From Candidatus Poribacteria bacterium (GTDB taxonomy: Bacteria; Poribacteria; WGA-4E; WGA-3G), in contig VXMD01000051.1 in assembly GCA_009841255.1 (NCBI GenBank), positions 1-45,782 of the forward strand: DNA of 45,782 bases. Direction: 5' to 3'. A program made the position numbers and the translations under genes. Positions 15,819-45,782 of the stretch are shown one piece after another. The notes under the pieces were generated by a model. It did no database searches. It worked only from the letters and a program-made list of their open reading frames with translations, and was not told the origin of the DNA. The number at the start of each line of letters is the position of its first letter. The stretch's first letter is position 1.

Positions 15819-15850
15819 GGGTGATGAGTTGTCAGTTAAGAGGCTTTTGT
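15819..15850. repeat. AGTTAAGAGG-family repeat
   Basis: GTTGTCAGTTAAGAGGC followed by a TTGTTAAACC segment. The same units occur at 18590-18633, 33818-33885, 45070-45112 and 45529-45782. It forms the leader of the SpoU methyltransferase gene. Confidence 0.55.
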
Positions 15851-15990
15851 TAAACCGAAGCGCGCAGCCCGTAAGCGTAGCGGAGGTGTTTTTACTTGGG
15901 GTTTTTGCTTGGGTGTTTCTGCGGATTTCCCCTAAATCTACGGAAAGGCACGTCAAACTTGAAACCGACCTGACCGAACCGCAAGAAAAG

Positions 15991-18544: not shown

Positions 18545-18770
18545 TCAAAAACGCAGCCTGCAACAATACGCAGAACCCCCAGGTTATTGGTTATAAGTTA
18601 TAAGTTATAAGTTAAGAGGCAGACCTCTTAACCAACCACCAACTACCAAAAGTGGAGCGCAGCGGAACGAACCTACAACCCTTTTCACAGAAAAACCGAA
18701 CCTATAGCCTACAACCATGGCAAAAATACGCAGGCGGATTTGAGAGAAAACAGTCAATAAACTGATCGCA
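18545..18770. repeat. Paired-end repeat element, copy A, with nested repeats
   Basis: One end reads AGCCTGCAACAATACGCAGA (18549-18568) and the other GCAAAAATACGCAGGCGGAT (18720-18739). The same ends flank a different interior at 30149-30235. The interior here holds three TTATAAG units (18593-18612) and the inverted pair GTTAAGAGG/CCTCTTAAC (18611-18632). The whole bamA-skp gap is made of repeat sequence; no coding capacity is evident. Confidence 0.55.
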
Positions 18771-33817: not shown

Positions 33818-33895
33818 CAGTCAGTTGTCAGTTGTCAGTTCTCGGTTAAGAGGTCTTCGTCTCATAAGGGTTCCCTCTTAAGATAGCATCAAAAC
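33818..33895. repeat. AGTTAAGAGG-family repeat cluster
   Basis: Tandem CAGTTGT units (33822-33840) lead into GGTTAAGAGG (33844-33853) and, about 25 bp on, CCCTCTTAAGA, an inverted partner. The same arrangement appears at 18590-18633 and, inside a gene, at 45070-45112. Confidence 0.55.
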
Positions 33896-43018: not shown

Positions 43019-43044
43019 ATGTTGTGAAAGGAATTAATCCAGAT

Positions 43045-45531
43045 ATGCGATTCACCTATTTTTTGCCGGGGTGGATAGTTCTGCTCGGTATCGGCGTTGT
43101 CATCGGTATAACCGTATTTGTTTATTTGCGGATAGCGCGTCCATTGCCTCCGAGGTACCGATTCTTGCTCATTCTGCTGCGGATCGCTGCAGCGTCGATC
43201 CTGCTCGGTTGTCTCTTAGCCCCCGTTGTCATGGAAAAGAAAGACATCACACCACCGACGCACCTCTCCATCTTGGTGGATACCTCACGAAGTATGCGGC
43301 TCGTTGATGCCCCGATGCGCGAGATACCTGTGTCAAGACTCAATCAGGTGAATCAACTGCTTTTCGATGTCCCAGGTCAATTCCTGCAGACCTTACAAGA
43401 TAAGTTTTATGTTCATCTCTATCCTTTCAATACGCGTCTGCAACAGAGCGTTCTCTTAGCACAAGAAGGGGATTCTCCAACGCCACACTTAGAGACGGAA
43501 GGGGCACTCACTGACATTGGCGGTGCTATACGGGAGGCAGCAGCCGCATGGAAGGGGCAACAAACTGCCGGTATTGTTCTTTTTACAGATGGTGCCCATA
43601 ATTCTGGAGAGTTCCCTTTGGAAGCGATCACTGCATTGGAGGTGCCGATCTACCCGATAGGGATCGGTTCTGTGGAACCCCCGAAAGACATTCAGATTCA
43701 GCGTGTGGATTACACACCAATTGCTTACACAAACCATGAGAGTATCATTCGTGTGAACGTTGTGCAAACAGGTTACACGGGTAAAACGACACAGTTGGCT
43801 TTGCGGGACGTAGAGCGTCAAAACCTCGTAGATACCGCAACGTTAACCTTCACCGCGCCTCAGGGCGCAAACGCTGTGGATACCGGTACAGAACAGGTCG
43901 TTGCGTTAAAGTTGACGCCGCAGTCAGAAGGCAATTTTCAGTACACCGTTACGCTTCCAACGCTTGACGGTGAGCTCACGGAGGCGAACAATCAAAAGAC
44001 GTTTTCTATAAAAGTTGTTAAGGCAAAGCTGAACGTTTTCTATCTGGAGGGCAGACCCAGATGGGACTACACCTTTTTGAAACGGACATTGGAACGCGAC
44101 CCAGATATTGAGGCTACCTGTGCAATCTTAGCACCTAACGCGGGAAAGCAGTTGCCTACAGCGAGTGTGCTCGATCGCTTAGATGGGTATTATCCCCAAG
44201 CGACGCCGACAACGGAAACCCCACGGTTCCCTGAAACGCTCGCCGAACTTTCTAAGTACGATGTACTGATTTTAGGGGATTTGCGAATTGAGCATCTCAC
44301 CATGGCGCAACAACGCGCAATTGTTGATTTTGTTGAGACACAGGGAAAACCGATTATCTTTCTACCCTCTCGGAACATGCTCGGTATGAATGGGATCAGA
44401 AATACAGAGTTAGCACCGCTTTTGCCGATTGACATCCCGCGGAATGGATGTCTTGTAGAGGATACAGAATTTACGATGCAACTCACCCAATCTGGAGCGT
44501 TTCACCCAATGTTGCAACTTTCGGAAACCGCTGTCCCGACCGCTGATAACCTTAACCCTCCACGCGAAGAAACACCCAAGCAAAAACACTCCGATACAAG
44601 ACAGCAACGCACGAGTGGAGGGTTAAAACTGATAACGAATATGCCAGCGTTACCGAGATTCTTCAGTGGATTCCGTCTCAGAGGTGGTGCGACGACGCTG
44701 ATGGAAAATGGGGAAGGCGTCCCGATCCTGATTCTCCAGAGAACAGGTTTAGGCAAAAGCCTACTTATCGCCGCGGAAGGCTTATGGAATTGGGATTTTG
44801 GTGTTAAAACCTTTAAGGATGAACGTTATCACACAATCTATCCGCGCTTTTGGGCGCAGGTGCTGCGTTGGATGGCAACAAACACGGGCGACAAGAACGT
44901 ATATCTTACAACAGATGCCGCCACGTATGCAACCGGGGATACAGTGAAGGTTACAGCGTATTTATACTCTGAAACCTATCAACCGCAAGCGGGAGCAACT
45001 GTTGAGATCGAAGTGGGACCTCCTGATGGTAATCCTTTCCAACTCCAGATTAACGCAAAGAGTAGTCATCAGTTAAGAGATGGGACTGTTGATCCAGAGT
45101 CCTCTTTAACTGATAACCCGACAAATCTCACTGCGATGCAAACTGACAACTCTCTATCCGATATGAGCAACCTCTATACTACCCAATTCGTGCTACGGCA
45201 GAAGGGGAAGTACCGCATTCGCGCGACGGGCAGGAACGGCAATCTGAAATTAGGCGAGGATCAAATCGATATTTATGTCCAACCGCAACTTGCCGAATTG
45301 GAGAGTCCAGAGCTCAATGAAAACTTGCTGAAGCAATTGGCAGAGCAAACCGGTGGTGCTTATTTTGCGATGACTGACGCCGCATCGGTCCCTGAAAACA
45401 TTGCCAATGTCCAAAAGCCGGTGTTCGTTGATGCAGAACGCGAGCTCTGGGCACATCCTTTGATCCTTATCATCGTCATTGGGTTGTTGGGCACTGAATG
45501 GTTTTTACGTAAACGGGTGGGACTTTTATAG
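43045..45531 (+). CDS. Membrane-anchored VWA-domain protein with GATase1-like region
   Basis: 828 aa. Two N-terminal helices (about 8-30 and 38-60) are followed by a von Willebrand A domain (about 73-240) with intact MIDAS D79-x-S81-x-S83, TDIGGAIREA and TDGAHNSG. A CARDB-like beta domain follows. A class-I-amidotransferase-like fold occurs near 330-480 (NVFYLEGRPRWDYTFLKRTLERD; KYDVLILGDL...IVDFVETQGKPIIFLPSRN), then a further beta region and a last helix (about 803-822). The layout matches large BatA-related membrane proteins of Planctomycetes and FCB bacteria that accompany MoxR ATPases; the partner genes are not in the window. AAAGGA lies 12 nt before the ATG at 43045. Residues about 674-710 are encoded by inserted repeat sequence. 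Confidence 0.8.
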   Translation: MRFTYFLPGWIVLLGIGVVIGITVFVYLRIARPLPPRYRFLLILLRIAAASILLGCLLAPVVMEKKDITPPTHLSILVDTSRSMRLVDAPMREIPVSRLNQVNQLLFDVPGQFLQTLQDKFYVHLYPFNTRLQQSVLLAQEGDSPTPHLETEGALTDIGGAIREAAAAWKGQQTAGIVLFTDGAHNSGEFPLEAITALEVPIYPIGIGSVEPPKDIQIQRVDYTPIAYTNHESIIRVNVVQTGYTGKTTQLALRDVERQNLVDTATLTFTAPQGANAVDTGTEQVVALKLTPQSEGNFQYTVTLPTLDGELTEANNQKTFSIKVVKAKLNVFYLEGRPRWDYTFLKRTLERDPDIEATCAILAPNAGKQLPTASVLDRLDGYYPQATPTTETPRFPETLAELSKYDVLILGDLRIEHLTMAQQRAIVDFVETQGKPIIFLPSRNMLGMNGIRNTELAPLLPIDIPRNGCLVEDTEFTMQLTQSGAFHPMLQLSETAVPTADNLNPPREETPKQKHSDTRQQRTSGGLKLITNMPALPRFFSGFRLRGGATTLMENGEGVPILILQRTGLGKSLLIAAEGLWNWDFGVKTFKDERYHTIYPRFWAQVLRWMATNTGDKNVYLTTDAATYATGDTVKVTAYLYSETYQPQAGATVEIEVGPPDGNPFQLQINAKSSHQLRDGTVDPESSLTDNPTNLTAMQTDNSLSDMSNLYTTQFVLRQKGKYRIRATGRNGNLKLGEDQIDIYVQPQLAELESPELNENLLKQLAEQTGGAYFAMTDAASVPENIANVQKPVFVDAERELWAHPLILIIVIGLLGTEWFLRKRVGLL
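45070..45112. repeat. AGTTAAGAGG-family repeat inside the VWA gene
   Basis: CAGTTAAGAG (45070-45079) and CTCTTTAACTG (45102-45112) are inverted partners, followed by ATAACCC; an AACTGACAACTC piece occurs at 45138-45149. The units are those of the intergenic repeats at 18590 and 45529-45782. The reading frame is kept and the encoded stretch is Ser/Thr/Asn-rich. Confidence 0.55.
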
Positions 45532-45570
45532 TTAATAGTTAACAGTTAACAGTTAACAGTGGTCAGTTAA
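45529..45570. repeat. AGTTAAC tandem repeat
   Basis: Three near-perfect 7-bp units (AGTTAAC) follow TAGTTAATAGTTAAC just past the VWA stop codon, then GGTCAGTTAAGGG. It begins a 250-bp stretch made entirely of this repeat family and reaching the end of the window. Confidence 0.7.
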
Positions 45571-45661
45571 GGGTGGTTTTAATAGAATCTGAAAAGTTTG
45601 ACGAGATGCCTCTTTAACTATAAACTGAAAACTGACGGGGCTAAAACTTGAAGTCCTCCAA

Positions 45662-45782
45662 GAAATGATAAATTGTTGCATCAAAACCTCTTTAACTGAT
45701 AACTGTAAACTGAAAACTATTTCTGGAAATGATAAATTGTTGCATCAAAACCTCTTTAACTGATAACTGTAAACTGAAAACT
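45662..45782. repeat. 57-bp direct repeat at the right edge
   Basis: The 57 bp at 45662-45718 recur exactly at 45726-45782, separated by 7 bp. Each contains GATAAATTGTTGCATCAAAA and the family unit CCTCTTTAACTGATAACTG. The second copy runs to the window edge, so the array may continue. Confidence 0.85.

Follow-up and report, generated by a model that had tools for sequence, protein, structure and literature searches.

Palindromic repeats within a gene for a VWA/MG2-like protein

The window analysed here, 45,782 nucleotides in length, corresponds to contig C51 of a 5.73 Mb Candidatus Poribacteria genome. It carries a gene for an 835-residue protein whose Pfam matches to VWA_2 and MG2 are weak, VWA_2 being present in 19 of 19 aligned orthologues (Table 1). 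Orthologues are spread throughout the Poribacteria genus; in named records they were found in Candidatus Poribacteria, together with one distant match in Balneolaceae. The gene contains repeat DNA in two of its loops, B in one and A in the other, and its reading frame is kept through the repeats.

Table 1. Host gene and repeat features, numbered from the first nucleotide of the window.
Feature	Sequence or translation	Position	Strand	Basis
VWA + MG2-like membrane protein, 835 aa, GTG start		43024..45531	+	ORF
Repeat element A with nested C, in frame	translation ADNLNPPREETPKQKHSDTRQQRTSGGLKLIT	44543..44636	+	nhmmer; covariance model; stem covariation
A left stem	TTAACCCTCCACGCG	44552..44566	+	inverted repeat I3
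Nested 21-nt repeat C	AAGAAACACCCAAGCAAAAAC	44567..44587	+	alignment of A copies
A right stem	CGAGTGGAGGGTTAA	44612..44626	+	inverted repeat I3
Repeat element B, in frame	translation SHQLRDGTVDPESSLTDNP	45064..45118	+	nhmmer profile; covariance model
B left arm	CAGTTAAGAG	45070..45079	+	direct reading
B right arm	CTCTTTAACTGATAAC	45102..45117	+	direct reading; inverted repeat I8, 12 nt, 92% complementary
Repeat D, 1 mismatch to consensus, then heptamer-like CAAC	CTCACTGCGATGCAAACTGA	45127..45146	+	mismatch search
Intergenic copies: heptamer arms and 64-nt tandem unit with B right arm		45529..45782	+	direct reading
Partial intergenic B copy		15827..15861	+	nhmmer, E 2.9e-5
Diverged intergenic B-like copy	GTTATAAGTTAAGAGGCAGACCTCTTAACC	18582..18636 (about)	+	direct reading; under profile threshold
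Diverged intergenic B-like copy	CAGTTGTCAGTTCTCGGTTAAGAGGTCTT...CCCTCTTAAG	33818..33882 (about)	+	direct reading; under profile threshold

Element B is a palindromic repeat of about 55 nt (AGTYRTCAGTTAAGAG...CTCTTTAACTGATAACCG) whose arms run on into 7-nt repeats of the CTGATAA type; tandem 7-nt units (TAACTGA and variants) flank B copies, for example TAACTGATAACTGAAAACTG. Its consensus structure is weak (-0.97 kcal/mol). Comparison of positions 45040-45180 with the same genome by blastn gave 49 matching places; apart from the segment itself, the best match was 82% over 61 nt. An nhmmer profile built on the in-gene copy was run over 828 kb of the genome, a sample of stretches partly picked around matches, and hit 45 places; a covariance model found at least about 75 in the whole genome. 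The strict pattern CAGTTAAAGAG..CTCTTTAACTG had zero matches in the genome. Repeat D was found at 15 places in the 828 kb at up to three mismatches.

The original prediction was that an intergenic repeat, shared with the DNA downstream of the gene and with parts of three other places in the window, had entered the coding sequence. The match itself was confirmed: both arms are present in the gene, and the 17-mer CCTCTTTAACTGATAAC from B is repeated exactly at 45687 and 45751. Copies proposed near 15819, 18590 and 33818 were likewise recovered, with more distant arms. The segment is repeat-derived, as predicted, but is a composite of B and D rather than one unit. Downstream of the gene, the 64-nt tandem unit that includes the B right arm is present at 45662-45782 in at least three copies and runs past the end of the window, with a further copy at C51:45816.

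An ordinary Ser/Thr/Asn linker might have drifted by chance into resemblance with the repeat, and the linker does vary in all orthologues. Chance resemblance is refuted, however, by the blastn matches to unlinked loci of the genome, with E values as low as 2e-10; as one gene also holds two repeat families and two small repeats, this explanation is scarcely credible.

Element A is a hairpin with covarying stems

The second insertion, absent from the original prediction, belongs to a different family. The consensus of A is a hairpin of about 70 nt, with 14 stem pairs and a loop of more than 20 nt, and its covariance model found 36 places in the genome. Among 17 aligned copies, 6 of the 14 stem pairs had changes on both sides, giving a covariation score of 0.294; shuffles scored 0.071, with 0 of 500 reaching the observed value, and slid controls did not exceed 0.047. 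In 12 of the 17 cases a B copy lay no more than 30 nt from A, against 0.4 expected. Repeat C was found at the same position in four of the 17 copies and was missing from the other 13; its core 12-mer ranks among the commonest in the 828 kb. Another high-copy repeat, TTTCCTTGCGGTTCGGTCA, is present at 15860-15990 of the window and in many places in L060-L099, often near C, and accounts for the commonest 12-mers of the sampled genome. The sequence CTGATAAC stands on both sides of the in-gene A copy, where the heptamer-array flanks make a duplication indistinguishable from the array.

The stems of A, in-gene ones included, remain paired despite changes on both sides, as would be seen if the in-gene hairpins were selected for a role in mRNA or DNA (translation pausing, an RNase site or attenuation) and the peptide were incidental. 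The covariation was measured over all copies pooled, however, and may reflect subfamilies from a mobile stage. Moreover, the host genes share neither a common class nor a common position, and the consensus structure of B is weak. Selection for a hairpin function is very unlikely to explain the in-gene copies.

The B-containing loop is variable and lies within the MG2-like domain

The B copy had been placed between beta domains. An AlphaFold model of the protein, used solely for secondary structure near the loop (mean pLDDT 47), gave no predicted secondary structure for residues 678-716 and flanking strands at 674-677 and 717-724, at low confidence. The MG2 Pfam match breaks at residue 681 in the host protein and spans 1-93/96 in two short-loop orthologues. 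We conclude that the loop sits within the MG2-like domain, not between domains. The identity of the repeats, their reading frame and their position in loops are established.

Thirty aligned proteins were compared, namely the host protein and 29 orthologues of the same genus. Loop 2, which holds B and is 44 residues long here, ranged from 16 to 56 residues in the 29 orthologues (median 26), and loop 1, which holds A, from 16 to 40 across all 30 proteins; the core outside the loops varied with an SD of just 5 residues. As the original prediction anticipated, none of the 29 orthologues had a conserved, alignable segment of equal length at the B loop, the sequences there being unrelated. Loop 2 of other species carries other repeat types, and loop 1 of the close relatives G017, G008 and G024 contains heptamer-like DNA without A. 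Loop length did not correlate with the number of B copies per genome (Spearman 0.08, p 0.68). Since the loop varies in all orthologues, the repeat may have entered or overwritten a pre-existing, older linker in the VWA gene. This gene offers no clean empty site; clean before-and-after cases are provided by der and tlyA.

A and B are found in frame in conserved genes

The search for other open reading frames with the motif was productive, and its results included conserved housekeeping genes. A or B copies were in frame in about ten or more genes, among them those for Der, PdxA, TlyA and RpoB, identified by PDB matches, and for PbpC-like, TamB-like and BamA-like proteins and a second VWA protein, named from reading of the sequence. 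The TamB-like gene (about 2200 residues, L061:8717-15322) has five in-frame copies, three of A and two of B, and the second VWA-type gene (L067:8418-10778) has two B copies and another heptamer-like stretch. A copies directly upstream of or at the start of rpsD-like (L069:4778-4834) and accA-like (L091:3142-3274) genes are possibly leader hairpins rather than coding inserts; they were dropped from the intragenic count, as the true start may be downstream.

The insert in Der, 33 residues long (query 29-61), falls cleanly between residues 26 and 27 of Bacillus subtilis Der. The linker has 44 residues here, 33-60 in the genus and 11 in 23 of 23 Poribacteria genomes of other families or classes. 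The corresponding region of TlyA has 62 residues here as compared with 21 in 15 of 15 other Poribacteria measured, the excess being A plus B. The absence of the Der and TlyA inserts from other families is established, as is the inheritance of the Der B copy in six species, which indicates that this copy is long-lived. Remaining species have other heptamer-like DNA, or no recognisable repeat, at the Der site. PdxA has an insert of 53 residues between chain residues 172 and 174, a site at which G017, G008 and G024 have B-like DNA without a whole A. The RpoB copy is a less clear case: it falls where PDB chains give no coverage, in a lineage-specific insert, and rpoB is probably to be counted among the affected core genes.

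Could linkers already under low constraint have gained short heptamer repeats (CTGATAA, CAGTCAG and CCGAAAG types) in place, by slippage or by copying from intergenic arrays, giving the loop of each species a repeat dialect of its own without transposition? The Der, PdxA and VWA sites do differ by species, with CAGTCAGCGGTCAG types in G010 and G034 and GCCGAAAGCCGAAAG types in G013, G033 and G004, and the loop type of G010 corresponds to its own commonest 10-mers, AGCAGTCAGC. In addition, the B core in der is identical at 48 of 48 positions between G000 and G033, despite only 61% identity at fourfold-degenerate sites elsewhere in the gene; the downstream part of der contained no other identical 48-nt window between the two. 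Against expansion or conversion in place, A is a defined hairpin with covarying stems, mostly found beside B, and slippage yields no such units; whole A or B units are present in the TlyA and Der inserts. Such expansion or conversion is a rather unlikely source of the loops. It is possible, and we raise it tentatively, that throughout the genus fixed loop sites of core proteins are rewritten time and again by the dominant intergenic repeat dialect of each species through insertion combined with gene conversion. If so, coding and non-coding repeats would evolve in concert and protein sequence would be constantly renewed.

Distribution, reading frames and mobility

Genes were called with our own ORF/hexamer model, under which about 87% of the 828-kb sample is coding. 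Gene calls were overlapped by 19 of 45 B copies and 12 of 17 A copies in this sample, which was partly chosen around matches. Among the best-scoring whole-genome copies, 8 of 29 for A and 6 of 27 for B were interior to genes, 15 of 29 and 18 of 27, respectively, were intergenic, and the remainder were at gene ends. With so high a coding density, an intergenic share of about half for A and two thirds for B fits a purging of most in-gene hits.

Interior B copies in the same orientation use the single stop-free frame (QLRDG...SLTDN), and those in the opposite orientation mostly read GYQLKRDLLNENLL. A is read in several frames and in both orientations, a pattern that speaks for insertion as a DNA unit rather than for gene duplication. 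The frames are consistent with units of DNA having inserted, after which open frames were selected. The argument from frame is partly circular, because gene calling itself demanded an open frame; the evidence independent of gene calling is that of the Der, TlyA and PdxA alignments. The same openness bears on removal of the repeat before or after translation, by intron-like excision, ribosome bypassing or protein splicing, which the interruption of conserved proteins at conserved points might suggest. Copies are open and in frame throughout, which removal would make needless (although gene calls favour open frames), and no intein or intron hallmark was seen in them. We regard removal as extremely improbable.

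Within the genus, A was found in 33 of 38 genomes and B in all 38. PF01797 was the transposase family searched for a cognate enzyme: no A or B copy lay closer than about 1.5 kb to any of the six Y1 genes. A target-site duplication could not be defined, the flanks being heptamer arrays and the relatives too distant. Several neighbouring genes on the same strand closely flank an element. A further repeat, like CTTTCCCGTTTGAAGGGAATGGAAAC, is present in G032 (L164-L167) in about 46 copies in 80 kb and resembles a CRISPR array.

Relation to known repeat families

Rickettsia palindromic elements (RPEs; Ogata et al., 2000, 2002; reviewed in PMC10969869, PMC2229807) form families of short palindromic repeats that are both intergenic and in frame within conserved protein genes. 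They are 105-146 bp long, and for gmk with such an insert both translation and activity of the product have been demonstrated (PMC2229807). The Poribacteria repeats are similarly palindromic, comprise several families and combine intergenic copies with several in-frame copies in conserved genes. They differ from RPEs in the short lengths of A and B and in the 14-pair stem and long loop of A. RPEs belong to a CGTC class with CGTC ends, stems of 8-9 bp and loops of 4-5 nt (PMC3733652), whereas CGTC is absent from the foot of the A stem and the end of the B consensus. Heptamer arms, adjacent A-B units and a nested 21-nt repeat are not described for RPEs in the cited reviews. A and B thus act like RPEs yet fall outside that family.

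The B arms consist of the same heptamer, TAACTGA/TCAGTTA and variants, as the TAACTGA repeats of Beggiatoaceae, Cyanobacteria and Bacteroidetes (MacGregor, 2015; PMC4679880), a paper in which Poribacteria are unmentioned. Forward heptamers translate as LITDN there and as SLTDN in Poribacteria. Forward TAACTGA units end ORFs or sit at their edges (PMC4679880), whereas in Poribacteria single forward units lie within proteins as part of a palindromic element. Like the GTAG REPs of RAYT transposases (PMC3733652), the repeats are small hairpins with complementary stem variants, sometimes in genes; unlike them, A and B lack GTAG beside the stem in their consensus sequences, and the RAYT-type Y1 transposase genes of the genome have no adjacent copies. 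Bacterial MITEs with ORFs (ERIC, Correia, YPAL; PMC2229807) are likewise non-autonomous inverted-repeat elements capable of in-frame gene fusion, and MITE-like terminal inverted repeats are present as the A stems and B arms. MITEs usually measure about 100-200 bp, and many of them have TA termini as well as target duplications (PMC2229807); TA termini were not seen in A or B. No relevant paper on repeats of this kind in Poribacteria was found in the open-access literature.

Origin and significance of the in-gene repeats

We consider it probable that A and B are small palindromic elements, once mobile, that are tolerated as translated loops. B would belong to a group of families, A and B with the smaller C and D, that are or were mobile in the genus and remain mostly intergenic. 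A copy that reached a surface loop or a linker between strands, by landing there or by spreading into it, would be kept if its length was divisible by three and its frame free of stops; on translation it would give a polar, probably disordered loop that is roughly neutral in effect. The same process would have operated in Der, TlyA, PdxA, the TamB-like, BamA-like and PbpC-like proteins and further genes.

The original observation is confirmed and is larger than first noted. Its interpretation, that a repeat is making new protein sequence, is supported by the 29 orthologues and by the other genes with in-frame copies; the VWA gene is a less clean example than der and tlyA, as its loop is variable everywhere. 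The making of new protein sequence from repeats is shown for open reading frames only.

Rickettsia, an intracellular parasite with a reduced genome, is the best-known case of in-frame palindromic repeats in conserved genes. The same outcome is now seen in the large genomes (4-7 Mb) of an unrelated phylum, with repeats that differ from those of Rickettsia. Several interacting repeat families are involved, and the in-frame copies in core genes such as der, pdxA and tlyA are apparently translated as extra protein loops. With nearly 40 related genomes, the conversion of repeats to protein and its persistence can be traced site by site.
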